The notes under the pieces were generated by a model. It did not search any database and had not been told where the DNA came from. It saw only the letters and a list, made by a program, of their open reading frames with translations. A stretch of 33,290 nucleotides of DNA from Marinifilum sp. (GTDB taxonomy: Bacteria > UBA9089 > CG2-30-40-21), in the NCBI GenBank assembly GCA_020717845.1, contig DYDG01000017.1, positions 1 to 33,290 of the forward strand. The letters run 5' to 3'. The translations under genes were made by a program, and so were the position numbers. Of this stretch, positions 696 through 33,120 are shown in pieces (position 1 is the stretch's first letter; every line of letters starts with the position of its first letter).

Positions 696-899
696 AGTGT
701 TGCGTCAACCCTCAATTGTCGGATAGCTTAATGTAGCTGCAGGGCTTGTCCCTGCCTTTTCCCAATGTAGCGATGCAACATTTTGCGTCTCTACTACATG
801 CGTTAAGCATAACCTGACATATGCAGAGAGGATAGATGGGGTAACACCCATCCTACAACTATATCATCTTTATGCGACACTGGAGGGTTGACACGACAG
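696..899. repeat. Composite repeat element with inverted ends
   Basis: GTCAACCCTC (704-713) and GAGGGTTGAC (883-892) are perfect inverted ends of a roughly 200-bp unit. Inside are three GTAG-hairpins: 733-755 (plus, stem GCAGGG), 767-789 (plus, stem GATGCAA with one wobble) and 835-856 (minus, stem GATGGG). The left end, including CAATTGTCGGATAG, recurs at 32851-32880, and the right internal motif recurs at 33093-33120. No coding capacity. It fills much of the gene-free stretch 631-1241 together with the promoter at 951-980 and the repeats at 1002-1143. Confidence 0.7.
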
Positions 900-950
900 T
901 AGTCATATTTTTCAAAAAAACACTTCTGGAGTGGATATTTTGTCCCTATT

Positions 951-980
951 ATTTTAACATATAAAAACTATTCCTGTCAA
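951..980 (-). promoter_or_regulatory. Sigma70-type promoter, leftward
   Basis: Minus strand: -35 TTGACA (980-975) and -10 TAAAAT (956-951) with an 18-bp spacer, or TTAAAA with 17 bp. An A/T-rich tract like an UP element precedes the -35. It points toward the DUF2294 gene, whose start is about 320 bp away, beyond the composite repeat. A 28-bp box lies 21 bp upstream (1002-1029). Confidence 0.65.
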
Positions 981-1001
981 GAAAAATTTTCAAGCTGTGC
1001 A

Positions 1002-1029
1002 TAATGGGTCAGTCATTGGTAGGGAAACA
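1002..1029 (-). repeat. 28-bp promoter-upstream box, copy A
   Basis: Plus-strand text begins TAATGGGTCAGTC and ends GGTAGGGAAACA. It matches 24161-24188 at 27 of 28 positions, and 24581-24608 on the other strand at about 22-23 of 28. Its end lies 21 bp from the -35 hexamer at 975-980, nearly the same spacing as in the other two copies. It is a regulatory box or the end of a mobile element. Confidence 0.65.
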
Positions 1030-1120
1030 GATAATCACAAATGGTGTGATGTCCATGGTGGAGAGGTGCAGGGTTGCGGTGGAAATGGTGATCGGTGAAC
1101 TGGAAACGGTGCAGGGTGTG

Positions 1121-1143
1121 GTAGGGGCGGGGTCATCCCGCCC
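1121..1143 (+). repeat. REP-like GTAG-hairpin, GC-rich family
   Basis: GTAG followed by a GGGCGGG stem, a 5-nt loop and CCCGCCC. The sequence through 1149 matches 24271-24299 and the reverse complement of 24484-24512 with few changes. It is unpaired here. The remainder of 1150-1241 shows nothing further that I recognise. Confidence 0.7.
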
Positions 1144-1241
1144 TGATTGATAAGGCAAGTTGTGAAAGGCAAAATACGGAGTGCAGAGTGGACACCGCAT
1201 ATTTCCTTCTCCCTCGCCCCTTGTGGGACAGTCTTCATCCT

Positions 1242-2207
1242 TCAACCTATCCCCTTCACATATTCCCGAAACACACCATCGACATCCTTCATGCTTTTTG
1301 CCTCAATCAAATGCTTTCTTAGTTCCCGTGATTTGGGCAGATTATGCGTATACAGGATAAGGTGTTTCCTCATTCGTCGTATTCCTGAATACTCTCCATA
1401 TTTTTCTATAGACTGTTTCAAGTGGGTCATAGCAGCAAAGCATTTTTCAGTTACATCTGATTGTTCAATAGAGCCGTCCTGTTGGGGTGCAGCCATATCC
1501 TTAAATATCCATGGGTTTCCAAGAGCTCCCCTGCCGATCATAACTGCATCACACCCTGTTTGTTGAAACATCCTGGCAGCATCCTGATATTTAAGAACAT
1601 CTCCATTCCCTATGACAGGGATAGAGGTATTTTCCTTAACCTGTCTGATCCAATCCCAGTTTGCCGCCCCTTTATACCCTTGAGCACGCGTTCTTGGATG
1701 GATAGTAACAAAGGATACCCCGCAGGACTGGAGCATATTTACCACAGACACAGGATCCTCTGATTCCTTATCCCAGCCAGACCTTATCTTGGCTGAGACA
1801 GGAATATCAACTGCATTTACCACACGGCTGGTTATCTTACTCATTAGAGAGATATCTTTTAGAAGTGCTGACCCCTCGTTTTTATTGACAACCTTTTTTA
1901 CTGGACAGCCAAAGTTTAGGTCAATAACATCTGGACGAAAATTTTCGGCAACAATGATAGCTGCTTCAGCCATAACATCAGGGTCAGAGCCACAGAGCTG
2001 AATGCCAATGGGTCGTTCCTCTTCACTAAATTCCATCATCTCAAAGGTTTTTTTATTTTTATAGGTAATCGCTCTGGCACTTATCAGGTCAGTAAATACC
2101 ATAGCTGCCCCAAATCTTTTGCATATTATTCTAAATACAGAATCAGTAAAACCAGCCATTGGGGCAAGGACTAACTTACCAGATAGGTTGAAACTTGTGG
2201 GTATCAT
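1242..2207 (-). CDS. dusB: tRNA-dihydrouridine synthase, DusB type
   Basis: FMN-dependent reduction of uridines to dihydrouridine in tRNA. Numbered from the upstream TTG at 2213: the N-terminal FMN-binding LAPMAGFTD (16-24), the catalytic cysteine in NFGCP (Cys103), the Lys of AKIRSGW (142), IHPRTRAQGY (171-180), the phosphate-binding IGNGD (201-205) and IGRGALGNPW (226-235) are all present. About 320 residues is normal. I choose ATG 2207 rather than TTG 2213 because GAGG then lies eight bases upstream; for TTG it would be only two. The gene lies downstream of rpsR with three REP-like hairpins between, so co-transcription is uncertain. Confidence 0.93.
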   Translation of the reverse strand: MIPTSFNLSGKLVLAPMAGFTDSVFRIICKRFGAAMVFTDLISARAITYKNKKTFEMMEFSEEERPIGIQLCGSDPDVMAEAAIIVAENFRPDVIDLNFGCPVKKVVNKNEGSALLKDISLMSKITSRVVNAVDIPVSAKIRSGWDKESEDPVSVVNMLQSCGVSFVTIHPRTRAQGYKGAANWDWIRQVKENTSIPVIGNGDVLKYQDAARMFQQTGCDAVMIGRGALGNPWIFKDMAAPQQDGSIEQSDVTEKCFAAMTHLKQSIEKYGEYSGIRRMRKHLILYTHNLPKSRELRKHLIEAKSMKDVDGVFREYVKGIG

Positions 2208-2250
2208 GGGCAATGCCTCAGGGAAGAGAATTGGTGTGTGGGATTGATTA

Positions 2251-2277
2251 GTAGGGAACGGTTACAACACCGTCCCC
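2251..2277 (+). repeat. REP-like GTAG-hairpin
   Basis: GTAG (2251-2254) with an 8-bp stem carrying one mismatch (2254-2261 with 2270-2277) and an 8-nt loop. It is the first of three such hairpins in the 170-bp gap between rpsR and dusB. Confidence 0.6.
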
Positions 2278-2293
2278 TATTATTCTATGGTTT

Positions 2294-2313
2294 GTAGTGA
2301 GGGTCGAAAGACC
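2294..2313 (+). repeat. REP-like GTAG-hairpin with GAAA loop
   Basis: GTAG, a four-base linker, then stem GGTC, loop GAAA, GACC. Short, but the same layout as its neighbours. Confidence 0.5.
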
Positions 2314-2353
2314 AGATTAATACTTAAACACTAAAGCCATACTGCACAGCTAA

Positions 2354-2375
2354 CGCACCTAATGGTGATCGCTAC
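2354..2375 (-). repeat. REP-like GTAG-hairpin directly after rpsR
   Basis: Minus strand: GTAG (2375-2372), linker, stem CACC with loop ATTA. The GTAG begins three bases after the rpsR stop codon. The sequence GTAG-n-GA-n-CACC-n-TTAGGTGCG is shared with the element at 9981-10001, so these two form one family. Confidence 0.65.
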
Positions 2376-2378
2376 ATC

Positions 2379-2627
2379 TTATGTTACCACATAAGGCAGT
2401 AAAGCTACAACTCGTGCCTGTTTGATGGCAATGCTGACCATACGCTGATGTCTGGCACAATTCTTTGATGCTCGACGATGCATTATCTTTCCTCTTTCGG
2501 TAATATACCTTTGCAATGTGCCAATATCCTTATAGTCTACAGAATCAACCTTATTTACACAGAACCTGCACACCCTTCTTTTAAGTGGCTTACGAAAACT
2601 TTTTCTGCCTTTTTTATTATCCATCAT
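2379..2627 (-). CDS. rpsR: 30S ribosomal protein S18
   Basis: Small-subunit platform protein that binds S6. The product (82 residues from ATG 2627) has the S18 core: VCRFC, DYKDIGTLQRYITERGKI, CARHQR and ALLPYV. The CxxC plus CxxH pattern corresponds to the zinc-binding form of S18. Two adjacent ATG codons (2627 and 2624) follow GCAGG and, further up, AAAGGAG; upstream in-frame codons to 2663 are unlike S18 and are excluded. It is third in rpsF-ssb-rpsR, the usual order, but rplI, which often follows, is absent and dusB comes next. Confidence 0.95.
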   Translation of the reverse strand: MMDNKKGRKSFRKPLKRRVCRFCVNKVDSVDYKDIGTLQRYITERGKIMHRRASKNCARHQRMVSIAIKQARVVALLPYVVT

Positions 2628-2655
2628 AGCCTGCTTTCTCCTTTTATTGGTACTA

Positions 2656-2757
2656 TTTTGCAACTGTTATCCTCTCCGCAGAGAATGTAGAGCTATCTCA
2701 CACTCACAGACAAGATGTCTGTGCTACATTTTTGCAACTGCCATTTTCTCCGCAAAA
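2656..2757 (-). repeat. REP-like hairpin flanked by 25-bp direct repeats
   Basis: Minus strand: GTAG (2727-2724) with stem CACAGAC (2723-2717 with 2711-2705), 5-nt loop. A second GTAG occurs in the opposite sense at 2687-2690. The pair is flanked by two imperfect copies (21 of 25) of a unit ending CAGTTGCAAAA, at about 2657-2681 and 2730-2755. It lies in the ssb-rpsR gap. Confidence 0.65.
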
Positions 2758-2783
2758 GACACAGAAAATGCGGTGAGCAATTA

Positions 2784-3218
2784 CTAAAACGGAACATCAT
2801 CACCTTTATCATCTTCATAAGAAGGAGGATAACCCATATCATTTTTATTTGTTTCAGGATATTCATCTCCATATCTTTCCTGAGTCTCTATTTTCCCAAG
2901 GAATTGAACACGATCTGCTACTACCTCAAGAATACTCCTTTTTTCACCACTTGTGGTAACCCACGAGCGTTGTTGGATACGGCCTTCAAGCAATACAGGT
3001 TTCCCCTTACTCAGGTATTTGTTGCAGTTTTCTGCATGTTTTCCCCAAACGATAATCGGAATAAAACTGACTTCTTCTTTTTTTTCACCAGTCTGGGTTA
3101 TAAAAATGCGATTTACCGCTACTGTAAAATGAACCACTGGTTGTCCGCTTGGTATATGCCGCAACTCTGGATCCTTTGTTAAATTACCGGCTAAAATAAC
3201 TCGATTAAAACTTGCCAC
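2784..3218 (-). CDS. ssb: Single-stranded DNA-binding protein
   Basis: OB-fold protein that coats single-stranded DNA in replication, repair and recombination. The 144-residue product begins VASFNRVILAGNLTKDPELR (GTG start) and has the SSB core with IPIIVWGKHAENC and GRIQQRSW, followed by a low-complexity linker and the acidic tip GDDVPF that recruits partner proteins. GTG 3218 is chosen because GGGAGG lies five bases upstream; an upstream open frame would add 22 non-homologous residues. It is the middle gene of rpsF-ssb-rpsR. Confidence 0.95.
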   Translation of the reverse strand: MASFNRVILAGNLTKDPELRHIPSGQPVVHFTVAVNRIFITQTGEKKEEVSFIPIIVWGKHAENCNKYLSKGKPVLLEGRIQQRSWVTTSGEKRSILEVVADRVQFLGKIETQERYGDEYPETNKNDMGYPPSYEDDKGDDVPF

Positions 3219-3233
3219 AATTTCCTCCCTTAC

Positions 3234-3262
3234 ATAGAGACAAGGGATTGCCTTGTCTCTAT
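3234..3262 (-). repeat. Perfect 12-bp hairpin overlapping the rpsF stop codon
   Basis: ATAGAGACAAGG (3234-3245) pairs with 3251-3262, 5-nt loop. The rpsF TAG (3261-3259) lies inside one arm, and the ssb ribosome-binding site starts a few bases beyond the other. No T tract, so not an intrinsic terminator; it could affect translation coupling or mRNA stability, or be a relative of the REP-like hairpins. Confidence 0.7.
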
Positions 3263-3648
3263 TGCTCTTCTGAAGAATCAACAACTGCTGCTTCAGCCTC
3301 TACATTCGCTACATTTTCCACAATGACCTTTCCTTTGCCTTTATTATCTTTAATCTTAATCAACTCAAATTTTATTGTAGTCATATATCTTAAGATAGGC
3401 AGAGATATTCTCAGCAGTCCTTCTAATTCAGGGATAATATTTTTTGAAGCATTAAAGTAAAGAAGATAGTAAAACGCCTCCTTGTGTTTATCAATAGGAT
3501 ACGCCAACCTTCTCAAACCCCATTCCTTCAACCCTTCAACAATGCCGCTTTCTTTGGTGATAAGTGTTTCTATTTTATTAAATAGTTTTTCCAAATCATC
3601 CTTTTTAGTTTCTGGATTCACAACTAACATACATTCATATTGTTTCAA
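3259..3648 (-). CDS. rpsF: 30S ribosomal protein S6
   Basis: Small-subunit protein that pairs with S18. The 129-residue product has the S6 ferredoxin-like fold pattern: QYECMLVVNPE, then EWGLRRLAYPIDKHKEAFYY (the conserved G-x-R-x-L-A-Y-P-I), and PILRYMTTIKF, followed by a variable acidic C-terminal tail of about 25 residues. The start is TTG 3648; AAGGAGGT lies upstream with long spacing (about 12 bases), and no other in-frame start fits S6. First gene of rpsF-ssb-rpsR, with its own promoter at 3691-3719. Confidence 0.94.
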   Translation of the reverse strand: MKQYECMLVVNPETKKDDLEKLFNKIETLITKESGIVEGLKEWGLRRLAYPIDKHKEAFYYLLYFNASKNIIPELEGLLRISLPILRYMTTIKFELIKIKDNKGKGKVIVENVANVEAEAAVVDSSEEQ

Positions 3649-3690
3649 TGGACTATTGTCACCTCCTTATAACATTTACTAATCTATTAC

Positions 3691-3719
3691 AGTATAGCAT
3701 ATTAATTTAATTTTATCAA
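3691..3719 (-). promoter_or_regulatory. rpsF operon promoter, extended -10
   Basis: Minus strand: -35 TTGATA (3719-3714), 17-bp spacer, -10 TATACT (3696-3691) preceded by TGC, an extended -10. An A/T-rich UP-like tract precedes the -35. The ATATGCTATA core is shared with the gyrA promoter. Twenty-one bases upstream of the -35 a degenerate relative (AACACACTATTAC) of the inner end of the 28-bp box may be present. Confidence 0.8.
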
Positions 3720-3770
3720 GAAAAATTTTTCGAGTTTGTGTAATAGTGTGTTGCTTCTCGCTACTCTCCA

Positions 3771-6700
3771 TTAAAACACAATACTCACATCCATATTTAC
3801 CTTATGAGAGGCATAATCATAAGCTGTATTTAGATGATTATGGATGTCTGACCAGGTATGACTCAGGGCAATATTCATCATCTTGACTACCCACCACTTT
3901 ATTGTTGTGGATGAAGAATAGGATGTCTGATGAGTAGAATCATTGTCATTGCAGGCAAGCATCTCGTTTATAGTTACCTTATCTTTAATAGCATATCCTG
4001 TACCTATGCTTGAAAAATAATCTATGGTTTTCAGGTTAGATGTCTTGTTAAGGTTGTTTGTTTGTTTGAATTCTGAAGAAAAATTCCATTTTGTTGTCGT
4101 CCACCCTATTTTGATGGCTGGAATATCCTTTGACAGGGTATCTTTTTCTGTGCATTCATAGCTAAGCCTTGTCGAGAGACCTTTCTTAAATATTGTCTCC
4201 CAGATGAGGAGGTATGTATCAGTGACGATTGAGTTGGTGATGTCCTGACAGATTCGAGGGGTCAGAGAGGATGTTCCTGCCTGACCGCCCTTTCCGTCCT
4301 TTCTGTCCTTTCCGTTCAGTTTCCACACCTTAAACCATCTGGTAAGCTCACCAGTATAATTATCTGTCTTATTCTTTATCCCATCAGCATCACTTCTTGA
4401 AAATCGATATTGAACAAGCCATTTCCATTTTTCAGATAAAGGAGATAAGGAAGATGTAAGTTTCATATTCCCGCCAGAGGCATCTGTTTGAGAGGTTATG
4501 ATTTGGTGTTCCAGATGCTTTTTTTGAGTATTTTCAAGAAATGTATTCAGAGATGGCAGCAATTTTGGGGTAATCCCCAGCTCCATGGAAAGGATTTGAT
4601 TATTCTGCTTGCTGTCAAGAACAAGGTTGGAGAAATTATCATGGCTATACCTGATGACGCTTGATAATCTGTCCGACGAGGTTACATTTATTGCCCCAAT
4701 GATATTTTCCTCCATAGATATACGGCTATCCTTATTAATATCTTTGCTAATTTTAAGCTTATATTCAGGGATTAGCTCTATCCCTGAGACAGGCTCAAGG
4801 TTAAACCGCAGGTAGGTATGATTGGAAGAGGTATGAAAGTTGTGGACATTATCCCGAGCATTGATATTCATCAAGCGATTAAAAACCCGAACCCTGGCAA
4901 GGCGAAGGATATTCTCCTTAGCTGCATCAAGGCTTATGGTTGTTTTCTTATTAATATTGTCTATTCTGTGCACATCTTTGCTGTCATTCTCATCTTCCTG
5001 CTTATAATCAATGTTGAGTTTGAATGTCTCTGCTGGCTCAAACCTTATCCCAGCTGAGGATATATCTTTTTCAATCTGTTTTTCAAGTGAGGATTTGGAT
5101 TTGAGACTATTTTCGTATTTCAGAGAAAACATGGTTGATGGTGTCAAAGATATTTGTGCCTCAGCTTGATACTGCCTTGTATCACTGATTGACTCAAAAT
5201 CAGAAAGTCCGATAGGGTTAAACCCCTGGTCAACATCCTTAACCCCTGCCTTAAGCTTAACCTGCTCACTTGAGAATTCAGCCTCAACCTTTTTTGCCAA
5301 TCCATCTACTGATGAGCCTTCTTTGGATACAAGGTCATCAATATATATGGTAATTGTCTCAGAGCCAGTATTATTAAGGACAAACTGAATACGGTTAATG
5401 GTCGAAAGGTCAGGCTCTCCATAGGTAACTGCATCTGTGGATAAGCTCTTTCTGATAGAAAGGTATCCCTCCTTACTCAGGCTGGTATCATATTTAAGAT
5501 AATCAGTACTTGCCGAATAAAGGCAAAGTGTTACAGTAACAGAGCCCTGTGCCTTTATCCAGTAATCAATGGTTGAATAAAGGGAAAGGTCAAGTGGGGC
5601 AGTAAATATTTGTTCAATAGTATTTGTTCCTGTGCCGCACATGATGCGCAATACCTGATGATTATCTGCACCATCAGGGTGCGAAATATTCGCAGAGTTT
5701 TTTTCTGCTGAAATACTTACACCAGAACTCAATGTTTTCCAACGGGTAAGAAGGTTGTCACCCTCCATATCATCCAGACATGCTTTTGCATCATTTCCAG
5801 GCTCTTTTGTGCTTCCTGCCAGCTCGCCTGTAATCTTTAACCTTTCTCCAGGATGAATATTGATATCAAAACCAAATATCTGCTGCTTCATCTGTGTCAT
5901 AGCTTGAGTAGTTTTTGCTTTAGAGGCAGCATCAGACTTAAAAAGATATGTGCAGCCCACATCCATCCCTTTATTCAGGCTATACCCGCTCCTCATCCCG
6001 GTAAGGCTGTAACGATTGCCTTCAGCTACTGTTTCATATTCAATCTTTACCTCTGAATCTGCATATATGCCGCTCATGTGTTGATCAAAAAAACGAACCT
6101 CGCCAGTCTCATAATTGATGGTATAATCCAACTCCCTCTGCTTCTTGATTCCATTTACCATAACCCTTTCACTCCCAGGAAGAACCGGCGGGTCAAGCTG
6201 ATATGTCTTGGCTGCATAATCATAATTGATATTAAAGGATGTTTTTGTAGCAAAATAGATGCTGCCATCAGAATAATTAATCTGATAATCTATGCCTCTG
6301 GTAAGGGTTGAGCTGCCAGATATAATAACCTCTGTCCCTTCAATAACATCAGGATAGCTCAACCTATAATAGCTGTGAATCTCTTCATCTGCTGTATCGG
6401 GCCCCTTGATTGTCAGTGTGCCGCTCTGGTCATAAGCCACCTGAATGATAGCATCTATTTCTGCCGGAATGGTGAGAGCAAGGACACGAATTGTTGTAGA
6501 TGGAGAGCCACAGGATTGTGTCCGAATAGTGTAATCAGTATTTGAGGTTAAGCTCGTAAATCCGCTTCCGTTCCCTGCGATACCATCATCAACCAGAACA
6601 TCATTTATTTTCTCTTCTGGCAAAAGCAGATAATATTTCCTCAGCTCATATCCATCTTGAGAAACATACTGTGAACTGTGTCCAATATCTCCTTTATATG

Positions 6701-7145
6701 TAGCGGTTTTAGAGATGCCCCTATTTGTTGCCGCAAATATTTGGGTATTAAACCTATCAGTCTTAAGCCCAGACCTCAGCCCAAACATCCGGCAATTATA
6801 TCCTGCAAACTCTGTTTCATTTAAGACAATATCCATGTGACCAAAAGAGGATGAGAATATATCCCTTTGATAATTGACCAGCATTTCCAATGGGTTTATT
6901 TCTCTGGTATCATCATAATTCATATAGGCATTCAAGCCTTCTTTTGTTTTACCTTCAAGAAGAAGTTTTGTGGACTGGCTTAGCTTGAACCCTTCGCTTT
7001 TATCCGTGGCACTCCCTGTAAAATCGGTATAAACAGAGGAAAACATCTTTATGCCTGAGATGTTGAATGGTTTTGAACTGCCTGTAGCATAAAGCTGTAT
7101 GGGGAGGAACAGGATGATAGATAGAAGCAGCATTCTTTTCATCAT
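3771..7145 (-). CDS. Large outer-membrane beta-barrel protein with inserted jelly-roll domain
   Basis: I do not recognise a named family. From ATG 7145 (GAGG five bases upstream) the 1124-residue product starts MMKRMLLLSIILFLPIQLYA, a Sec signal peptide with cleavage likely after LYA. Residues 270-298 and 324-352 are two copies of a beta module with the pattern G-x-DY-x-INY-x-G-x-I/V-x-F. Residues about 455-607 resemble a carbohydrate-binding jelly roll (LDDMEGD, many paired beta strands, ending ETITIYIDDLVSKEG). The remaining C-terminal half alternates polar and apolar residues as in a transmembrane beta barrel and ends in Phe (NMDVSIVF), the usual BAM recognition end. Probably surface exposed; ligand unknown. 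It lies downstream of coaBC and may share its transcript. Confidence 0.7.
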   Translation of the reverse strand: MMKRMLLLSIILFLPIQLYATGSSKPFNISGIKMFSSVYTDFTGSATDKSEGFKLSQSTKLLLEGKTKEGLNAYMNYDDTREINPLEMLVNYQRDIFSSSFGHMDIVLNETEFAGYNCRMFGLRSGLKTDRFNTQIFAATNRGISKTATYKGDIGHSSQYVSQDGYELRKYYLLLPEEKINDVLVDDGIAGNGSGFTSLTSNTDYTIRTQSCGSPSTTIRVLALTIPAEIDAIIQVAYDQSGTLTIKGPDTADEEIHSYYRLSYPDVIEGTEVIISGSSTLTRGIDYQINYSDGSIYFATKTSFNINYDYAAKTYQLDPPVLPGSERVMVNGIKKQRELDYTINYETGEVRFFDQHMSGIYADSEVKIEYETVAEGNRYSLTGMRSGYSLNKGMDVGCTYLFKSDAASKAKTTQAMTQMKQQIFGFDINIHPGERLKITGELAGSTKEPGNDAKACLDDMEGDNLLTRWKTLSSGVSISAEKNSANISHPDGADNHQVLRIMCGTGTNTIEQIFTAPLDLSLYSTIDYWIKAQGSVTVTLCLYSASTDYLKYDTSLSKEGYLSIRKSLSTDAVTYGEPDLSTINRIQFVLNNTGSETITIYIDDLVSKEGSSVDGLAKKVEAEFSSEQVKLKAGVKDVDQGFNPIGLSDFESISDTRQYQAEAQISLTPSTMFSLKYENSLKSKSSLEKQIEKDISSAGIRFEPAETFKLNIDYKQEDENDSKDVHRIDNINKKTTISLDAAKENILRLARVRVFNRLMNINARDNVHNFHTSSNHTYLRFNLEPVSGIELIPEYKLKISKDINKDSRISMEENIIGAINVTSSDRLSSVIRYSHDNFSNLVLDSKQNNQILSMELGITPKLLPSLNTFLENTQKKHLEHQIITSQTDASGGNMKLTSSLSPLSEKWKWLVQYRFSRSDADGIKNKTDNYTGELTRWFKVWKLNGKDRKDGKGGQAGTSSLTPRICQDITNSIVTDTYLLIWETIFKKGLSTRLSYECTEKDTLSKDIPAIKIGWTTTKWNFSSEFKQTNNLNKTSNLKTIDYFSSIGTGYAIKDKVTINEMLACNDNDSTHQTSYSSSTTIKWWVVKMMNIALSHTWSDIHNHLNTAYDYASHKVNMDVSIVF

Positions 7146-7193
7146 TTTTACCTCGCAGCATATCTTCCTTAGGATATTGATGCAACCTGTAAT

Positions 7194-7225
7194 ATTCAAG
7201 CTGGAAGCTTGAATTACTATCCTAC
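7194..7225 (-). repeat. REP-like GTAG-hairpin supplying the coaBC stop codon
   Basis: Minus strand: GTAG (7225-7222), a linker, then stem ATTCAAGC (7214-7207 with 7201-7194) with a 5-nt loop. The TAG of GTAG is the coaBC stop codon. Outer bases GTAAT and ATTAC extend the stem. Confidence 0.65.
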
Positions 7226-8424
7226 AGCACATCAACTACTAAAATCCGTCTCATGATACATTCAGCGATTCTGTCCTTGGAAAGTAGCGGTATCTTTTCT
7301 TGCCGGCCATGTTTGTCAATAATCGTAACCTCATTCTGGTCAGAGCCAAAGCCAATATCATCCCTGCTAATATCATTGGCAACAATAAAATCAAGGTTTT
7401 TTTCCCTCAATTTTTTGACAGCATTCTCGATCATATTCTGGCTTTCGGCTGCAAAACCAACTACTATCCCACTCCAGTTTTTAGAGGCAACTTCCATTAA
7501 GATATCAGGCGTCTGCTGCATTTGAAGAACTATTCTATCCGCACCCTTTTTCAACTTTTCACTGCTTACCTCTACAGGCATGTAGTCGCTTACAGCAGCC
7601 GCAGAGATGAAAATATCAGATAGCTCAAGGAATTCCATAACCCTATCCCTCATCTGGCAGGCAGAGGTAACACGATATATTTCAACACCAGGGGGTGTAT
7701 CAAGACAGGTTGGACCACTAATCAGGATAACCCTTGCTCCCATCCTTTTTGCTGCTATTGCCAGGCTATAGCCCATCTTGCCTGAAGAGGGGTTGCTGAT
7801 GTATCTAACCGGATCAATCATCTCCCGCGTAGGGCCGGCAGTAATCAATACGGTCTTTGTTTGATTCAGGCTGAAGGCTGAAGGCTGATCATCATTTAGA
7901 CTATTTTTCACTGCCCCAACAATCCTCTCAATAGAGGCTAACCGCCCATCCCCCTCTGTGCCACATGCCAGACAACCATATTCTGGGGTAATAAGCCGAA
8001 TCCCCCGTTGTTCCAATCTTTGAATATTTTCCTGAATGATAGGGTTATGCCACATATGGGTATTCATTGCCGGTGCAATCAATATCTGGCTTCCCATTGT
8101 CAGGGCAAGGGTGGTAAGAAAATCATCTGCAATCCCGCAGGCAATCTTTGAGATAATATTGGCTGTTGCTGGTGCAATCAATAGCAGGCTGCACCTATCA
8201 GACAGAGCTACATGCTCAACCTCAGATGGTGAATTTGCAGAAAAAAGCGAGGTAACGACCGGATTTTTGGATAATGTCTGAAAGGTAAGGGGCGAAATAA
8301 AAGAAACTGCACCCTCAGTCATTACGACATGAATATCATATCCCAGCTTCACCAATTGGCTGGTCAGCTCTGCTGCCTTATAGGCAGCAATACTTCCTGT
8401 TATACCAAGAGCGATTGTTTTCAT
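7222..8424 (-). CDS. coaBC: Phosphopantothenoylcysteine decarboxylase / phosphopantothenate-cysteine ligase
   Basis: Bifunctional coenzyme A biosynthesis enzyme, 400 residues, full length. The N-terminal flavin-dependent CoaC domain shows GITGSIAAYK (8-17), the catalytic His71 in EVEHVALSD, APAMNTHMW (117-125) and the Cys-loop CGTEGDGRL (154-162). The C-terminal CoaB domain shows ITAGPTREMIDPVRYI (194-209), NPSSGKMG (211-218), AAVSDY (276-281) and the KLKK lysines (290-293). The interdomain linker contains QPSAFSLN, encoded by a short repeat that also occurs between gatC and gatA. gmk ends 13 bp upstream. rpoZ, often found between gmk and coaBC, is missing. The last codons run into a REP-like element. 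Confidence 0.95.
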   Translation of the reverse strand: MKTIALGITGSIAAYKAAELTSQLVKLGYDIHVVMTEGAVSFISPLTFQTLSKNPVVTSLFSANSPSEVEHVALSDRCSLLLIAPATANIISKIACGIADDFLTTLALTMGSQILIAPAMNTHMWHNPIIQENIQRLEQRGIRLITPEYGCLACGTEGDGRLASIERIVGAVKNSLNDDQPSAFSLNQTKTVLITAGPTREMIDPVRYISNPSSGKMGYSLAIAAKRMGARVILISGPTCLDTPPGVEIYRVTSACQMRDRVMEFLELSDIFISAAAVSDYMPVEVSSEKLKKGADRIVLQMQQTPDILMEVASKNWSGIVVGFAAESQNMIENAVKKLREKNLDFIVANDISRDDIGFGSDQNEVTIIDKHGRQEKIPLLSKDRIAECIMRRILVVDVL

Positions 8425-8437
8425 ATCCTATCTTTTC

Positions 8438-9070: not shown

Positions 9071-9083
9071 TAATATCCTCCCA

Positions 9084-9947: not shown

Positions 9948-9980
9948 TGTTTTGTTCCTTTCTTGTAAATAGTATCGAAC

Positions 9981-10001
9981 GCACCTAAAGGTGCTCACTA
10001 C
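9981..10001 (-). repeat. REP-like GTAG-hairpin between cam and yicC
   Basis: Minus strand: GTAG (10001-9998), linker TGA, stem GCACC, loop TTTA. It starts seven bases after the cam stop codon and belongs to the same family as 2354-2375. Confidence 0.7.
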
Positions 10002-10008
10002 AAAAACA

Positions 10009-14398: not shown

Positions 14399-14484
14399 TA
14401 CATTTGTAGCTGCGCGAGGCTTGCCTTCGCTCAAAAGCGACCGCAAGGAGGCAGCACCTCTGGCAGGTCGCAGCTACAAATGTA
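14399..14484. repeat. Paired REP-like element with 18-bp loop insertion
   Basis: Perfect 16-bp inverted ends TACATTTGTAGCTGCG (14399-14414 and 14469-14484). The left half is a plus-strand GTAG-hairpin (14406-14430). The right half is a minus-strand one (14477-14437) with stem GCGACC, the same stem as 17113-17135, but with a 23-nt loop instead of five. The extra 18 nt correspond to the repeat unit AGGCAGCACCTCTGGCAG (14449-14466). The right arm supplies the stop codon of the YfhO gene. Confidence 0.75.
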
Positions 14485-16864: not shown

Positions 16865-16903
16865 TTTCTTCTCCTTATGTTGTTGCTTGTGGCCGTAAAA
16901 AAG

Positions 16904-17105
16904 GGTGGTGTCTGAAATTAGCTAAAAGTTTGCCACAAAGGCACAAAGGCACTAAGATGCACAAAGAAAATTTTAAAGCACTCATTAAAGATGGAATGAA
17001 ACGGATAATTTTGCAAGATATATCTTAGAGAACCTTCGTGTCTTAGTGCCTTTGTGGCAGAAATTATCCGGCAACTAACAAGCCAAGCTATTCTCAGACA
17101 CCACC
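16904..17105. mobile_element. 202-bp MITE with 12-bp inverted ends and 8-bp target duplication
   Basis: Ends GGTGGTGTCTGA (16904-16915) and its perfect complement (17094-17105) are flanked by TAAAAAAG on both sides (16896-16903 and 17106-17113). Inside, TCTTAGTGCCTTTGTGGCA (17041-17059) pairs with 16931-16957, which carries an 8-bp internal duplication. No transposase. A second copy in opposite orientation begins at 33239 and matches over 52 bases with one difference. It is inserted in the T tract of the terminator at 17107-17135. Confidence 0.88.
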
Positions 17106-17106
17106 T

Positions 17107-17135
17107 AAAAAAGCGACCACAAGGGTCGCAGCTAC
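17107..17135 (-). terminator. REP-like hairpin acting as intrinsic terminator
   Basis: Minus strand: GTAG (17135-17132), CT, stem GCGACC (17129-17124 with 17118-17113), 5-nt loop, then six T. It lies about 90 bp after the stop of the second penicillin-binding protein. The stem matches the right half of 14399-14484. The stretch 17136-17227 also holds AAAAACTTGAACATCGAG (17189-17206), repeated exactly at 33142-33159, and nothing else I recognise. Confidence 0.75.
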
Positions 17136-17227
17136 AAGAATATTGGCTGGCTTTACTACTTTGAACTGTGGTGGTTCTTAAAGCCACAAAAAACTTGAAC
17201 ATCGAGAGCAACAACCCAACGCATCTC

Positions 17228-19308: not shown

Positions 19309-19331
19309 GAAAGGTCGCGACCTTTCTCTAC
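19309..19331 (-). repeat. REP-like GTAG-hairpin between the two penicillin-binding protein genes
   Basis: Minus strand: GTAG (19331-19328) followed by a perfect 18-bp palindrome, half-site GAAAGGTCG (19326-19309). No T tract. Confidence 0.7.
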
Positions 19332-24270: not shown

Positions 24271-24293
24271 GTAGGGGCGGGGTTTCCCCGCCC
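24271..24293 (+). repeat. REP-like GTAG-hairpin, GC-rich family, left member of a pair
   Basis: GTAG with stem GGGCGGGG, loop TTT. With 24490-24512 it forms an inverted pair (27 of 29 bases identical over the extended repeat), a BIME/REPIN-like layout. A third copy is at 1121-1143. Confidence 0.75.
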
Positions 24294-24489: not shown

Positions 24490-24512
24490 GGGCGGGGTGA
24501 CCCCGCCCCTAC
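24490..24512 (-). repeat. REP-like GTAG-hairpin, GC-rich family, right member of a pair
   Basis: Minus strand: GTAG (24512-24509), stem GGGCGGGG (24508-24501 with 24497-24490), 3-nt loop. Inverted partner of 24271-24293. Confidence 0.75.
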
Positions 24513-24979: not shown

Positions 24980-25021
24980 GCTAAAAGCCTTCAGCCTTCA
25001 GTCTATTAAAAGGAGAATCCG

Positions 25022-26470: not shown

Positions 26471-26478
26471 ATGTATAC

Positions 26479-26879: not shown

Positions 26880-26897
26880 AGGACACTATTACCTCGT

Positions 26898-27016
26898 CAG
26901 AGTGTGTAAAAACTCGATTTCTCAAGAATTACCACACAATATAAGGTAGCAAGCAACCTTGCTGTATCAATATATTGTGGTGTTTGCTCATGAATTTTGA
27001 GTTTTTACACACTCTG
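26898..27016. mobile_element. 119-bp MITE with 18-bp inverted ends and TCGT duplication
   Basis: Ends CAGAGTGTGTAAAAACTC (26898-26915) and its perfect complement (26999-27016) are flanked by TCGT on both sides (26894-26897 and 27017-27020). The interior has a partial second inverted repeat (CCACA/TGTGG). No coding capacity. No second copy in this window. Confidence 0.85.
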
Positions 27017-27044
27017 TCGTGATAATTAAAATTATGGGTTATGA

Positions 27045-27114
27045 GTAGGGTGGGCATTGCCCACCAATCTATTCCCTCCATCTACATCTTTTTGGTGGGC
27101 GATGCCCACCCTAC
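27045..27114. repeat. REPIN-like pair of GTAG-hairpins
   Basis: Left: GTAG with stem GGTGGGC, loop ATT (27045-27065). Right: the same on the minus strand (27114-27094), loop ATC. Extended arms match 22 of 23. This 70-bp head-to-head pair is the clearest BIME/REPIN in the window. The rest of 27115-27196 shows no convincing promoter. Confidence 0.85.
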
Positions 27115-27196
27115 CCCTAAGATTAAATGTCAAGACACGGCTTCTTCCCTATCTTTGTGTTAAAATTGTATTACAGACAGTAGAGGAAAATTTAAA

Positions 27197-29956
27197 ATGA
27201 GTATCATCTCCCCCCACTTAGAAAAAATCTTACAACAAAAAGAAAGCCCTATATGGGGTGGATATGTAAATATGTTAAAGCTTTTGAAAAGCATATTCTC
27301 TCCTAAACATTGGATATTAGAATTTCTTCAGAACGCAGAAGATGCTAAAGCAAGTAAAATTTCTATTCGATTGGAACAAGATTCTCTTTATATCCTTAAT
27401 GATGGTAACACATTCCAAGATAAAGATTTCTACTCCATCTGTGATGTAAATTCTCGCAAATCCCCTGGTTTGGGTACTTGGGGATACCTTGGTATTGGCT
27501 TCAAATCTATTTTCCAAATTACGAAAGAGATTCATATACATTCAGGTGATTTTCATTTTATGTTTAATGAGAATAAATGGAATAATACCAACATCTTGCC
27601 ATGGGAAATTTTACCGATAGAGATTAACTCAATAACCCTTCCGGAAAACTATACTACAGGATTTTATATTCCACTTCAAGATACAGAAGGGCAAAAGGTT
27701 CTTGAAGAAATTAAAAATTTTCTTACCAGCAATAGCTTTGCAAAAGAAGTTATTGTTTTTCTTAAAAACATTGAAACTATAGAAGTCTATACACCGCAGA
27801 TGTCTTTTACCATTAGGAAAGAACAAGAATACCACCAGAAGATTGCTTTTGGAGAAAAAGAAATTATTGTAGTAAGAAAAGAACTGCTTCATGAACAAGG
27901 AGAGGATGAAAAATCCAACTATTTAGTATTTCGCAAGATTGTTGAGGTTCCATCAGATATTAAGGAAGATGAGACAACCATCCGTGTTCGTCGCTCTAAT
28001 GTGCATAACAAAGAAATAGGGATTGTTTTTGAATTAGACAAGGAAAGGAATATTCAATCTTTAATAGGCAAATTAGCCGGTGTTTACTCCTTTCTACCAG
28101 TTGAAGGGGAACAGACAGGCTTGCCTTTCGGGATATTTGGGGATTTTATCCCTCACCCAGGGAGAGATCTTATCAATTATGTAGCAAAGTGGAATTACTG
28201 GTTGACTAATGAAATAACCGAACTTTTCAAAACAATAGTCAAAACGGTTTTATTGGATAATCCTCTTTGGAAATTCTTTCCCGCCCAATTGATTAACTCA
28301 TTGAATAATTTCAGCCCTGCTTCCTTTGGTGGTCCAAGCAGAGAATTTTGGGAAGAAAGAATAAGGAAACCCATTCAAAATTTTCTTGAATCCGAAGCTC
28401 TTTATCCTGATAAAGAGGGAATAGCACGAAAATTAAACGAACTCGTTAAGGTAGATGAGGAGATTATTGAGATTCTCGGGGATGAGATATCGGAATTTTC
28501 AGGGAAAAAGATTGTTCATCCCATAATAAAGAATAAACTTAGCTTAGAACAGGTAGGGATATACGATCTTCTATTCGAAGAAGAACTTCTTAAACATTTC
28601 AAAGGTCAACCAGAAAAATTGACAAGATGCTATAGTCTTATTAATACCCTTAGTGATTATTATATTGGGGGCAGAGGAGGTAGAGGTTGTCGTTTAATGC
28701 ATATCCCCTTTGTCCTTGCAGATGATGGAGAATTATATCCTCCTGGGCAGGTAACAGTAATAAAAATAGAGAAGGATGCTCTTCCAAAAATTTTGGTTCC
28801 TTTTATCCCTGAAGGTGGGAAACTTTTGCATCCAAAGATTGCTGAAGATGGAAAAGCTGTTTGTCAATTACGACGATGTGGGATTGACGTCACAGATGGA
28901 GATGATATTTCAAGAACATGCCGAGAACGAATTCAAAATATCACAGATTGGGGTATGTGCCCTAAAGAGTGGGAAATTCCTGATACCCTTATCGAAGCCA
29001 CTCTATCTCTTATTATATCTGAAGGATATACAGGATTAAAATTATCACGATTAGTGGCTCAAGATGGTAGCCTTCAACCACCTCAAGATCTATTTTTCAT
29101 AGATGCTCCTTCAAAGTGGACTCCACTTTGGAAATCTCTCTTTTTCTCTAATCTTCAGCCTGTGCATGAGAAATACTTTATGCAGGAGAATCTTAAAGAA
29201 GAAGTGACTGAATATGTTAAGAATTTGGGTGTAATTGATAAAATTGAGGATAGCCAAATAATTCAACAAATAATTCAACAGGTCATTACATGTAATATAG
29301 AAAAGTACCCGGAGTTTTGGGAATATCCCGATACACTTATTGAAGTTACATTATTTCTTATTGCTCATGGAAAAACATTAGAAATATCTCAGTTTGTAGC
29401 CCAGGATGGGACTTTTCATGTTCCTCAGAATCTATTTGTCCCTGAAGCTTCTCTTGACTGGACTCCGTTGTGGAAAGAGCACCTTCTCCCTGGTTTTCAA
29501 CCTGTGCACGAAAAATACCTTAAGCAAAGGGAAATATTAGAAACGGTTAAGGAATATTTTAAGTTATGCCATCTCCATGGATTCGAAAGAAACGAAGATA
29601 AATCTCTTGTTGAAATAGTAGCATACGAAATAGCAGAAAGAGAACTAAGCAAAAAAGGTCATCAAATTAGGCGAGTGAATCATCGAGATAAGTTAGGATA
29701 TGATTTAGAGTGTCAAGAACATTGCAAAAAGGTCTTTGAGGTAAAAGGAATGGGAGACCCATGTGATATTAAACTTGAAAAAAGTGAATATCGGGCAGCT
29801 AAAGAAAGAGAAGAAGATTATATCCTTATCTGCGTTTATAATCTTCCCAATAAACCTGAAAATGTGGGGTATAGAGAGATTTCTAATCCTGCAAAGATTT
29901 GTGAACCCATAGAGGAAGCAAAGGTGCCAAAGAATGAATGGTGGAGGAGACAATAA
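27197..29956 (+). CDS. Sacsin-like GHKL ATPase fused to a DUF3883 nuclease-like domain
   Basis: A 919-residue cytoplasmic protein with no signal or membrane segment. The N-terminal GHKL (HATPase) motifs are: N box ILEFLQNAEDA (Glu42, Asn46), NDG (68-70) and the G2 loop GYLGIGFKS (96-104), as in sacsin-type ATPases. A middle alpha/beta region follows. Residues about 594-681 and 710-795 are a tandem duplication (PDTLIE.TL.LI, VAQDG, WTPLWK, QPVHEKY). The C-terminus (about 803-885) fits DUF3883 with PD-(D/E)xK-like residues: Asp836 in GYDLE and Glu848-x-Lys850 in FEVKG. Such ATPase-nuclease fusions occur in bacterial defence loci, so a defence role is inferred, not shown. ATG 27197 follows GAGG. 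A+T-rich relative to its neighbours, with toxin-antitoxin-like genes downstream. Confidence 0.75.
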   Translation: MSIISPHLEKILQQKESPIWGGYVNMLKLLKSIFSPKHWILEFLQNAEDAKASKISIRLEQDSLYILNDGNTFQDKDFYSICDVNSRKSPGLGTWGYLGIGFKSIFQITKEIHIHSGDFHFMFNENKWNNTNILPWEILPIEINSITLPENYTTGFYIPLQDTEGQKVLEEIKNFLTSNSFAKEVIVFLKNIETIEVYTPQMSFTIRKEQEYHQKIAFGEKEIIVVRKELLHEQGEDEKSNYLVFRKIVEVPSDIKEDETTIRVRRSNVHNKEIGIVFELDKERNIQSLIGKLAGVYSFLPVEGEQTGLPFGIFGDFIPHPGRDLINYVAKWNYWLTNEITELFKTIVKTVLLDNPLWKFFPAQLINSLNNFSPASFGGPSREFWEERIRKPIQNFLESEALYPDKEGIARKLNELVKVDEEIIEILGDEISEFSGKKIVHPIIKNKLSLEQVGIYDLLFEEELLKHFKGQPEKLTRCYSLINTLSDYYIGGRGGRGCRLMHIPFVLADDGELYPPGQVTVIKIEKDALPKILVPFIPEGGKLLHPKIAEDGKAVCQLRRCGIDVTDGDDISRTCRERIQNITDWGMCPKEWEIPDTLIEATLSLIISEGYTGLKLSRLVAQDGSLQPPQDLFFIDAPSKWTPLWKSLFFSNLQPVHEKYFMQENLKEEVTEYVKNLGVIDKIEDSQIIQQIIQQVITCNIEKYPEFWEYPDTLIEVTLFLIAHGKTLEISQFVAQDGTFHVPQNLFVPEASLDWTPLWKEHLLPGFQPVHEKYLKQREILETVKEYFKLCHLHGFERNEDKSLVEIVAYEIAERELSKKGHQIRRVNHRDKLGYDLECQEHCKKVFEVKGMGDPCDIKLEKSEYRAAKEREEDYILICVYNLPNKPENVGYREISNPAKICEPIEEAKVPKNEWWRRQ

Positions 29957-30051
29957 ATTCACTGACTTAAGCAATATAAGAGCGAAACTCAATTGTCTTG
30001 ATTCACCGTGAACCAAGACTCTGTCAAAATAAAGAAAGAGGGAGTTTGAAT

Positions 30052-30309
30052 ATGCCAATAATTAGCAGATTTCTGGGCATCACTATAACAATGTATTGGG
30101 ATGATCATCTTCCACCACATTTCCATGCTAAATACGGCGAGCATGAAATTACTGTCAATATTCTTACTGGAGTGGTGGAAGGCAGATTTCCCAAAAGGGC
30201 GATACAACATGTTTTAGAATGGTATGAGTTACACAAAGATGAGTTGATAGAAGATTGGGAAATCTGTCGCCAACAGGAAGCACCAAAACCAATTGAACCA
30301 CTGGAGTAG
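30052..30309 (+). CDS. DUF4160 protein, putative toxin-antitoxin component
   Basis: Eighty-five residues from ATG 30052 (GAGGGAG nine bases upstream). The DUF4160 signature MPIISRFLGI, MYWDDHLPPHFHA (His23 and His25) and YGEHEITVNI is complete. DUF4160 genes are commonly paired with DUF2442 genes, as here, and the pair is regarded as a putative toxin-antitoxin module; which partner is toxic is not settled. The downstream gene starts four bases after this stop. An in-frame upstream start at 29998 would add 18 unrelated residues. Confidence 0.85.
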   Translation: MPIISRFLGITITMYWDDHLPPHFHAKYGEHEITVNILTGVVEGRFPKRAIQHVLEWYELHKDELIEDWEICRQQEAPKPIEPLE

Positions 30310-30313
30310 ACAA

Positions 30314-30601
30314 ATGATATTACATGTAACAGATGCAAAGTATTTGGATGAACACAAAGTAGAAGTTTCCTTTAATGATGGCCGAAAAGGGATCGCCGAC
30401 TTGAGTAATGCTTTACGAGGCTCTGTTTTTCAACCATTGAAGGACAAATCTATTTTTGCACAACTCAAGTTGGATAAAGAACTGGATACAATTTCATGGC
30501 CAAATGGTGCTGACATAGCACCAGAATGTTTATATTTTCAAGCATTCAAAGACGATCCCGAACTACAAAAACAATTCAAAATATGGGGCTATATAGCCTA
30601 A
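30314..30601 (+). CDS. DUF2442 protein, putative toxin-antitoxin component
   Basis: Ninety-five residues from ATG 30314, with GGAG seven bases upstream inside the previous gene. Typical DUF2442 blocks: FNDGRKGIADLSNAL, FAQLKLDKELDTISW and PNGADIAPECLY. Translationally coupled to the DUF4160 gene. The stop TAA (30599-30601) follows a perfect 12-bp palindrome, GGCTATATAGCC (30587-30598), and overlaps a GCCTAAC motif discussed under findings. Confidence 0.86.
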   Translation: MILHVTDAKYLDEHKVEVSFNDGRKGIADLSNALRGSVFQPLKDKSIFAQLKLDKELDTISWPNGADIAPECLYFQAFKDDPELQKQFKIWGYIA

Positions 30602-30718
30602 CACGTCGCTGAACCCGATAGCGGGGACTGTGGCGTGATTCTGAAAATTTTATGGTTTATCAAAATTTTATTTTGCTTATGAAAAGTTAGTAGTAATCCT
30701 CTTTCATAGGATGTTATT

Positions 30719-30990
30719 GTGATTATCAATGAAGTCATTTGGAAGGAAAAATTTGTTAAGAAAATTGAAAGTAAATATAAGGTAACTACTTTTGAGGTAG
30801 AAGAAATCTTGCGAGGTAAAATGAAAGTTCGTCGGGTGACAAAGGGAGCTGTCGAGGGTGAAGATGTATATTTAGCATTAGGACAAACCACAATGCAGGA
30901 CGGTACCTTTCCGTATTCTTTATTTTGAAAAAGAATCGCAGCGTGCTGCCTATTAGCACACGCGATATGGATAGCAAAGAAAGGAACAGT
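30719..30990 (+). pseudogene. Toxin of a BrnT/DUF4258-like pair, frameshifted
   Basis: The first part (GTG 30719, AGGAT upstream) reads VIWKEKFVKKIESKYKV, then EEILRGKMKVRRVTKGAVEG, EDVYLALGQT and stops at 30928. The expected C-terminal part of the same family, VFFILKKNRSVLPISTRDMD, is present in another frame from about 30911. A one-base shift between roughly 30889 and 30911 would join them. After the shift the frame runs without a stop into the antitoxin gene, so the original toxin stop is also gone. Likely an inactivated RelE/BrnT-type toxin; a sequencing error could mimic this. Confidence 0.6.
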
Positions 30991-31233
30991 ATGAACGCAA
31001 ATAAGAAGAAAGATGCAGTCCGGTTTTGGGATACTCACTCTGCTGCTGATCACTGGGACAATATGAAAGAAGTAGAAATAGAATTTGATATTAAAAGGCA
31101 TAAGTTCTTGGTGCCATTAAATGATCAGATTTATCAACTTGCTAAGAAACGAGCAGAAGTAGAACACTCCTCGGTTTCACAGATAGTGAATACATTGTTG
31201 GCTCATGATCTGGTTGGAGCAGTAGCACGATAG
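30991..31233 (+). CDS. CopG/BrnA-type antitoxin
   Basis: Eighty residues from ATG 30991, with AAAGGA six bases upstream. The N-terminal FWDTHSAADHWDNMKEVEIE and the ribbon-helix-helix-like C-terminus (VPLNDQIYQLAKKRAEVEHS, then SVSQIVNTLL) match CopG/BrnA-type antitoxins. It is the partner of the frameshifted toxin and would repress its own promoter if functional. It is kept intact while the toxin is broken. No gene is seen in 31234-31370. Confidence 0.75.
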   Translation: MNANKKKDAVRFWDTHSAADHWDNMKEVEIEFDIKRHKFLVPLNDQIYQLAKKRAEVEHSSVSQIVNTLLAHDLVGAVAR

Positions 31234-31370
31234 GGGAAGGTCAACCCTGGCAAATCAGTCTAATAAACTTATCTGGGTATTATCGGTAAAACGGGAATTG
31301 TATCGCCGATGGACTGAGGACAAAGAACAAACCATTGGGGTTGGGCAAAAATATATTAAGGGGATTTGAA

Positions 31371-32834
31371 ATGGCTACAAATAATACTGATACTAATGGC
31401 AAAAAGGGTAAGGTTTTAATGATTTATACCGGTGGAACTATCGGCATGCTTCCAAAGGAAGAGGGTAATCCACTCAGCCCCTTAGTCCCAGCCAATTGGG
31501 GAAAACTGAAGAAATTTGCTCCTGTTTTAGAGTATCTTCCTTTAGATGTTGCTTTACAGGAAATGAAGCTAATTGACTCTTCGGATATGAACCCTGACTA
31601 TTGGATTAATATTGCCAGGGTTATCAGAGACAACTATGAGAAATTTGATGGTTTTGTTATCCTCCATGGCACGGATACAATGACCTACACAGCCACAGCC
31701 CTTTCTTTTTTACTTGAAAACCTCAACAAACCTGTCATTATTACAGGTTCTCAATTATCAATTGGCCAACCAAGAAGCGACGCAGTGCAAAATCTGGTCA
31801 CCTCTTTAACCCTTGCTGCTGCTAAGAGCTTTAACCTACCATTGATTCCAGAGGTCTGTATCTGCTTCAATAATGTAATATTACGCGGCAACCGGACAAG
31901 AAAGGTCAGCTCAAGCGGCTATTCGGGATTTGACACTCCCAATTACCCAAAATTGGGAAAAGCAGGTGAACATATAAAAATAGATACAAAGGTAATTCGA
32001 AAACCGTCAACAGAAGGATTCTTTGCCAATGAAAATCTGGAGAAGAATGTTATGTTGTTTGATATATTTCCAGGCATAAGCCCGGAAATACTAAATAGCG
32101 TCTTTGGTATAGAAGGTTTGAAAGGTGTGGTTTTTAGAACCTATGGGGCAGGCAATGCCCCTACCAATGAAGACTTCCTGAAGGAAATTGAAAAAGCGAT
32201 TAACAAAAAAAACCTGGCGATTGTTAATATTACCCAATGCAATCAAGGAATGGTGGAGATGGGTCTTTATGATGCCAGTGCCACCCTATCCAGGCTGGGG
32301 GTTATAAGCGGAGTGGACATGACTCCAGAGGCGGCGTTGGTCAAAATGATGTTCCTCCTTGGACAGGGATATGATATTGGAACAGTAAAGGACCAGATGC
32401 AAAAAAACCTCCGTGGAGAGCAAAGCGTTAATGTATTTAATTTTGTTTACGAAGATGGAAAGGCAGACAAGGTCTACAAAGCCCCTACTAAACAACTGCC
32501 TGCCGGTTTTGATAAAAACATGATTGTCAGTGTCAATATCAGGATTGATGAAGCCATATTACCCAAAGAAGTCAAACAGGAGGAAATAGAACTAGCGGTA
32601 TTCATGAATTATCCCGGTGCTGATGAGAATACCGATACATCTATCCCTCAATGCCTTGGAGTGCTGAAGGGGATATATAATGGAGAGCCGGTAAATCTCA
32701 TCCTTGGCTGTAGCGAACGATTCAAACAGGTTATAAATCCCGACCGTCCTATTCAGATTGCGATTATAGCTAAAAATGAACATACTGTCCGATGGGAGGG
32801 CGCTTTTATCTCTGTATATACAAGCGTGGAATAA
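31371..32834 (+). CDS. ansA: L-asparaginase (type I) with extra C-terminal domain
   Basis: Hydrolyses asparagine to aspartate and ammonia; cytoplasmic type, no signal peptide. The 487-residue product has the catalytic YTGGTIGM (Thr23), LIDSSDM, FVILHGTDTM (Thr101, Asp102), ITGSQ, RGNRTRK, TYGAGNAP and NLRGEQ, aligning with Escherichia coli AnsA to about residue 350. The final 120-odd residues (VSVNIRIDEAILP onward) are an unassigned beta-rich extension absent from AnsA. ATG 31371 has AAGGGGA upstream; an in-frame upstream start at 31335 is rejected. Confidence 0.9.
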   Translation: MATNNTDTNGKKGKVLMIYTGGTIGMLPKEEGNPLSPLVPANWGKLKKFAPVLEYLPLDVALQEMKLIDSSDMNPDYWINIARVIRDNYEKFDGFVILHGTDTMTYTATALSFLLENLNKPVIITGSQLSIGQPRSDAVQNLVTSLTLAAAKSFNLPLIPEVCICFNNVILRGNRTRKVSSSGYSGFDTPNYPKLGKAGEHIKIDTKVIRKPSTEGFFANENLEKNVMLFDIFPGISPEILNSVFGIEGLKGVVFRTYGAGNAPTNEDFLKEIEKAINKKNLAIVNITQCNQGMVEMGLYDASATLSRLGVISGVDMTPEAALVKMMFLLGQGYDIGTVKDQMQKNLRGEQSVNVFNFVYEDGKADKVYKAPTKQLPAGFDKNMIVSVNIRIDEAILPKEVKQEEIELAVFMNYPGADENTDTSIPQCLGVLKGIYNGEPVNLILGCSERFKQVINPDRPIQIAIIAKNEHTVRWEGAFISVYTSVE

Positions 32835-32850
32835 GAGAATAAATGCCTGC

Positions 32851-33120
32851 CTGTCGTGTCAACCATCAATTGTCGGATAGTAGGGACAGGGGAGAGCCTC
32901 TCTATGTGGCTTGCCTCTGTCCACGTAACTGCACAATTACAAGAGGTAGCATCTCTGGCAGTTGTAGAGGATGGGTACTAACCCATCTATCCCCTCTTTG
33001 GTTTGCACATACCGCAGAATGAGGGATACTTACAAAACATCTGGATGGGTAGAAATTGTTACACGTTGCTTTGTTTGTCCTGCGTTGATGGAATAGATGG
33101 GTTAGCACCCATCCTACAAC
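32851..33120. repeat. Composite repeat related to 696-899
   Basis: Starts CTGTCGTGTCAACCATCAAT, matching the left end at 696-726 (22 of 23 in the core). Contains a possible GTAG-hairpin (32880-32922, stem GGACAG with a nested insertion), one 18-bp unit (32944-32961), and an inverted pair of GTAG-hairpins with stem GATGGGT (32964-32987 plus; 33117-33096 minus). No gene. Confidence 0.7.

Follow-up and report, generated by a model that had tools for sequence, protein, structure and literature searches.

Hairpins that carry the tetranucleotide GTAG at one foot have been described as a superfamily of repetitive extragenic palindromic sequences (REPs) in which stems are numerous, one genome can hold several families and stem changes are complementary (Di Nocera 2013, PMC3733652). 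Further reported features are REPs with a double foot, subclass 2.4 stems whose lowest three pairs are G-C, REPs located inside the genes of REP-associated tyrosine transposases (RAYTs, TnpA-REP) and, for nearly half of the RAYT genes, the presence of more than one REP subfamily around the gene (Quentin 2018, PMC6006769). In vitro, two group-3 TnpA-REPs depended on GTAG, on particular loop bases and on pairing of the stem, while most stem changes were tolerated (Corneloup 2021, PMC8266576). The present analysis concerns the GTAG-footed hairpins of a 33,290-nucleotide stretch of Marinifilum sp. ("the window"), which is the whole of contig C39 (DYDG01000017.1) of the draft genome G000 (181 contigs with a total of 2.55 Mb; 94% complete). 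Judged from their sequences, these hairpins are very probably GTAG-footed REPs of about nine families, several of them arranged as inverted pairs (REP doublets forming hairpins, REPINs, or bacterial interspersed mosaic elements, BIMEs), which are or formerly were spread by TnpA-REP/RAYT HUH transposases. This reading is based on the polar position of GTAG, the multicopy families, a RAYT gene on contig C69 that is accompanied by its own family, matches to RAYT genes of relatives, and differences in presence or absence between congeners.

The hairpins are real but of a known kind and form no new system: published GTAG REP families share their anatomy, and a new GTAG recognition system was therefore rejected. 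With the GTAG superfamily (PMC3733652) they have in common GTAG at one end, a stem of 6-13 bp with a short loop, the coexistence of several families in a genome, stem changes that complement each other, head-head and tail-tail dimers, an association with RAYT genes and a preference for heterodimers in many families; for the GTAGCTGC, GTAGGATGGGT and GTAGGGTGGGC families this likeness is one of anatomy, not family by family. With TnpA-REP/RAYT subclass 2.4 (PMC6006769) they share long REPs, three G-C pairs at the bottom, double-foot palindromes (here families A and I), an occurrence in many phyla and, in relatives, REPs between the HUH and Tyr motifs of RAYT genes. The C69 RAYT differs from that subclass in lacking an internal REP and in having a REP that begins GTAGCTGC, not GTAGGGGC; the likeness is one of features. 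Inverted REP pairs with a RAYT, and the pairing of two REP subtypes, also recall REPIN/BIME (E. coli Y-Z2; PMC3116915, PMC6006769), although the arms here differ in their inner stem pairs (xxGG versus xxCC) and have the same loop and length. A preliminary description of the window had regarded the diversity of stems as unusual and had assumed that known REP families as a rule have a single stem in any one genome. Neither view is supported, because multiple GTAG families per genome and sub-families had already been published (PMC3733652, PMC6006769) and the literature reports more than one stem per genome (PMC3733652, PMC6006769, PMC8266576).

Genome counts were made on stretches totalling 1.284 Mb, about half of G000 with the window included, and gaps were delimited by a simple open reading frame (ORF) caller, so that gap counts are approximate. 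A strict unit was defined as a GTAG with a perfect stem of 6 bp or more beginning 0-2 nt after it and was counted in gaps, with chance levels taken from dinucleotide shuffles. In 726 gaps 246 strict units were found, compared with a shuffle mean of 6.85 and a maximum of 13, and the window gaps contained 10, compared with a mean of 0.17 and a maximum of 2 in 200 shuffles. The enrichment over shuffled gaps that the preliminary description had proposed as a check is thus present, and GTAG ranks first among the 256 tetranucleotides as a foot (9.8 times expectation, the runners-up overlapping GTAG). It is again first, at 6.7 times, when fully palindromic units and the neighbourhoods of miniature inverted-repeat transposable elements (MITEs) are removed. 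The layout is polar, with GTAG at the 5' foot only, since CTAC shows no enrichment in that 5' position (0.98 times). Strict units are present in 130 of the 726 gaps (18%), and 7 of the 19 window gaps of at least 40 bp hold a previously listed site; because the crude ORF calls put 17135, 24271 and 10001 into short ORFs or very small gaps, about 9-10 window gaps have sites in practice. The earlier statement that almost every gap contains such a hairpin was therefore too strong.

The units of G000 sort into about nine discrete recurrent families, which rules out that the stems are as diverse as chance hairpins. They are multicopy and dispersed between genes, with a stem of 6-13 bp and a short loop. 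Family A consists of double-foot palindromes GTAGAGACGC..GCGTCTCTAC, F is characterised by GTAGCTGC, B by GTAGGATGGGT, C by GTAGGGTGGGC, D and G by GTAGGGGC, E by GTAGCACAGAC, I by GTAGGGAACGG, and H by GTAGTGAG with the loop CTTTAG. Families A and I are double-footed, and the others have GTAG at the 5' foot only. The few relatives available for comparison included the congeners G001 and G002, the further relative G003 and the order-mates G004 and G007. The elements of the window are as follows.

693-903, no strand: MITE of about 211 bp with terminal inverted repeats of about 21 bp, AGTAGTGTTGCGTCAACCCTC, at 696 (plus) and 888 (minus)
733-755, plus: F-family REP GTAGCTGCAGGGCTTGTCCCTGC, within the MITE; F also flanks the RAYT of G000 itself
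767-794, plus: decayed, one-sided double-foot palindrome related to family A (GTAGAGACGC..GCGTCTCTAC), in the 211-bp MITE
835-856, minus: B-family REP GTAGGATGGGT..ACCCCATC, decayed, within the MITE
1121-1143, plus: D-family REP GTAGGGGCGGGGTCATCCCGCCC; D lies beside a RAYT in congener G001
2251-2276, plus: I-family REP GTAGGGAACGG.., decayed; the G001 orthologue pairs better
2294-2312, plus: H-like unit GTAGTGAGGGTCGAAAGACC with a short stem; the H type lies beside RAYTs of G004 and G007
2354-2375, minus: H-like unit GTAGCGATCACCATTAGGTGCG with a short stem
2705-2727, minus: E-family REP GTAGCACAGACATCTTGTCTGTG; about 65-70 bp around it are missing at the orthologous place of G001
9980-10001, minus: H-type unit GTAGTGAGCACCTTTAGGTGCG; missing at the orthologous place in G003
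14406-14430, plus: F-family unit with a GAGG-type arm, altered, assigned by eye
14437-14477, minus: F-family unit with a GACC-type arm and an enlarged loop, assigned by eye; mixed head-head pair with 14406
17113-17135, minus: F-family REP GTAGCTGCGACCCTTGTGGTCGC
19309-19331, minus: hairpin GTAGAGAAAGGTCGCGACCTTTC; the G001 orthologue has a compensated A-T to C-G change
24271-24293, plus: D-family REP GTAGGGGCGGGGTTTCCCCGCCC
24490-24512, minus: D-family REP GTAGGGGCGGGGTCACCCCGCCC, inverted partner of 24271
27045-27065, plus: C-family REP GTAGGGTGGGCATTGCCCACC
27094-27114, minus: C-family REP GTAGGGTGGGCATCGCCCACC, head-head partner of 27045
32964-32987, plus: B-family REP GTAGAGGATGGGTACTAACCCATC
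33096-33117, minus: B-family REP GTAGGATGGGTGCTAACCCATC, head-head partner of 32964

GTAG is indeed present at all 20 coordinates from which the presence of at least 18 GTAG-footed hairpins had been deduced, and 15 of the 20 are members of families recurrent in the genome (733, 856, 1121, 2251, 2727, 14406, 14477, 17135, 19331, 24271, 24512, 27045, 27114, 32964 and 33117; 14406 and 14477 are altered copies assigned by eye). The other five fit less well. Three have stems of only 4-5 bp (2294, 2375 and 10001), yet match the GTAGTGAG..CTTTAG type found beside RAYTs of the same order; 767 is decayed; and at 7225, from which the quoted stem ATTCAAGC came, GTAG is no foot because about 7 nt separate it from the stem.

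Several units had been noticed to form inverted pairs; 14406/14477, 24271/24512, 27045/27114 and 32964/33117 are such pairs, and in family F their composition follows a strict rule. F is constant in GTAGCTGC and in its loop, CTTGT, and varies in four inner pairs (AGGG, GGGG, GAGG, GACC, AACC). All 32 inverted F pairs found combine an xxGG arm with an xxCC arm (12 of 12 in G000 and 20 of 20 among the listed places of G002), while chance pairing of the arms would yield about half mixed pairs. Next to RAYT genes from many phyla, the two stems are unlike in 20 of the 21 inverted pairs. Like-with-like pairs occur in families B and C of G000, and the window's D pair is of this kind too. Heterodimers were seen to be preferred in 2013 without an explanation, and avoidance of long palindromes was proposed (PMC3733652); the strict mixed-arm pairing renders this preference testable. 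One possibility, which we regard as tentative and rather unlikely, is a two-class code in which the GG-type and CC-type arms would mark distinct ends for the transposase or would prevent the collapse of the pair into one long palindrome.

A search with the profiles PF01797 and NF047646 revealed RAYT-like genes on contigs C65, C69, C53 and C90 of G000. The C69 gene (13696-14148) is intact, encodes 150 amino acids and has inverted pairs of GTAGCTGC (F) hairpins, the family also found in the window, on both flanks; the gene and its flanking hairpins are a REPtron. In the alignment of the C69 family the HUH motif, the WQ..YYEH..R region of GTAG contact and the Tyr motif are all conserved, the putative catalytic tyrosine of the C69 protein is Y130, and the only solved structure related to the alignment is that of TnpA-REP 4er8. 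RAYTs of relatives are flanked by families D (G001), G (G002) and H (G004, G007) and by an E-like type (G001). The suspected RAYT/REP system is thus supported, and the suggestion of several RAYT families holds as well, as multiple REP/RAYT systems coexist in the clade. The proposed match between stem clusters and RAYT flanks holds for F in G000 and for D, G and H in relatives, and was not found for A, B, C and I among the relatives examined. In this way, REP/RAYT families from a little-studied bacterial lineage are added to those known. The gene on C65 has a DnaA-like C-terminus and no REP alongside.

The tolerance of stems is also seen in a wider set of 80 RAYT loci from many phyla (stretches L095-L174). 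GTAG is 10.8 times enriched at hairpins near these genes, and different stems surround one RAYT gene at 23 of the 35 loci that offer two or more comparable units, in agreement with the stem tolerance seen in vitro (PMC8266576); these units were picked by perfect stems, so that drift toward imperfect stems would escape. The stem-tolerant system that had been considered is thus supported by single RAYTs surrounded by several differing paired stems, and the dozens of loci are a comparative counterpart to the in vitro finding that pairing is the main demand on the stem. A higher conservation of the loop at single RAYT loci was dropped as a candidate: in the per-site comparison over loci the loop is no more conserved than the stem (0.21 for the stem, 0.20 for the loop), and loop constancy is therefore claimed only for F and for individual pairs. 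A GTAG REP lies inside the gene's own reading frame in 51 of the 80 RAYT genes, nearly always 8-32 codons past the HUH motif, and it matches the outside REPs of the same gene in 17 of 21 testable cases (about 3% with shuffled loci). Such internal REPs are no novelty, as they are known for subclass 2.4 (PMC6006769); the match between inside and outside is quantified here.

REPs would be non-autonomous and would be mobilised by HUH single-strand tyrosine transposases (TnpA-REP/RAYT). Published biochemistry suggests that a RAYT would bind one DNA strand folded as a hairpin, that GTAG would guide the cleavage dinucleotide, and that the protein would read loop bases and the shape of the stem, not most of its letters; the stem would therefore be free to drift while paired, and different stems would build up around a fixed foot. 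The total diversity of stems would then be the sum of several RAYT systems, some of them not in G000, and of this stem tolerance. Some GTAG units of families A, F and B have in addition been carried along within the MITE.

The maintenance of pairing itself is evident in family F. In copies chosen by the 5' foot and the loop alone, 50 of 52 inner stem cells pair, compared with 26 (maximum 42) when the 3' arms are shuffled, and this test avoids the bias toward perfect stems because the copies were anchored on foot and loop. Template switching at quasi-palindromes, an established mutational process in which a change in one arm is copied to the other, could keep stems paired without selection, in which case compensated stems would be uninformative on recognition. 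It accounts for compensated changes and is compatible with the A-T to C-G change in the orthologue of 19331. What it leaves unexplained is that GTAG is fixed, that the F loop is constant and that arms of two classes are systematically joined in inverted pairs; we regard it as an unlikely explanation.

Spread as hitch-hikers, with most copies distributed by MITEs that have their own terminal inverted repeats and with a small role for RAYTs, appears still less probable. The MITE of the window holds nested GTAG units of three families (733 of F, 767 A-like, 856 of B) and is repeated many times, in full or in part, in G000 and G001, and 23 of 72 F-type units have a MITE context. Nevertheless, GTAG is the top foot outside MITEs too, F units were found in 46 distinct contexts that share no conserved flank, and GTAG hairpins flank RAYT genes in many phyla. 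That the hairpins are mainly intrinsic terminators or structured RNA ends with an incidental GTAG is very improbable, for although many units sit between genes and TTTT follows within 10 nt at 25% of the non-palindromic units (background 6.7%), three quarters lack a T run, the T-run excess includes MITE copies reading GCCTTTTCCC, no Rfam family matched in a scan of the window, and the units have a polar, top-ranking foot and form sequence families that flank RAYT genes.

The reading of the hairpins as REPs spread by RAYTs is also consistent with their distribution among relatives. Family F has 105 copies in G000, 299 in the congener G002 and none in G001 or G003, and family sizes therefore shift fast inside the genus; orthologous gaps likewise differ in the presence or absence of units. 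Several observations weigh against this reading. The clearest case of presence or absence, 2684-2752, has an imperfect direct repeat at its borders, and deletion between the repeats is therefore possible. The C69 protein scores 75.2 bits on NCBIfam NF047646, below the cut-off of 80. The relatives examined yielded no RAYT for families A, B, C and I, and for E only an E-like type. Finally, given the TTTT excess, a subset of units may act as terminators.

The C90 protein scores 111.5 bits on NF047646, above the cut-off. Its gene is flanked by hairpins with a GATC foot, not a GTAG foot, GATCGTTCAGGATA..TATCCTGAAC (L023:4116-5018 on C90, and 13 contigs of G000), of which about 24 copies are present in the sampled part of G000, with compensated T/C to A/G changes. 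Two related RAYTs in the distant genomes G073 and G019 (L300:1327-1450; L303:1400-2140) also have GATC-footed hairpins, with unrelated stems; no published case of a GATC foot was found in the REP literature searched. In the window, a dispersed repeat of about 210 bp at 16897-17114 and a further repeat at 17108-17206 were noted, with many copies in G000. The 1154-amino-acid protein encoded at 3771-7235 has a weak partial match to the model of the type IX secretion system (T9SS) translocon SprA/Sov (58.9 bits, cut-off 200), and the 919-amino-acid protein encoded at 27197-29956 carries an N-terminal ATP-binding domain of the sacsin type (NF047352, above cut-off).

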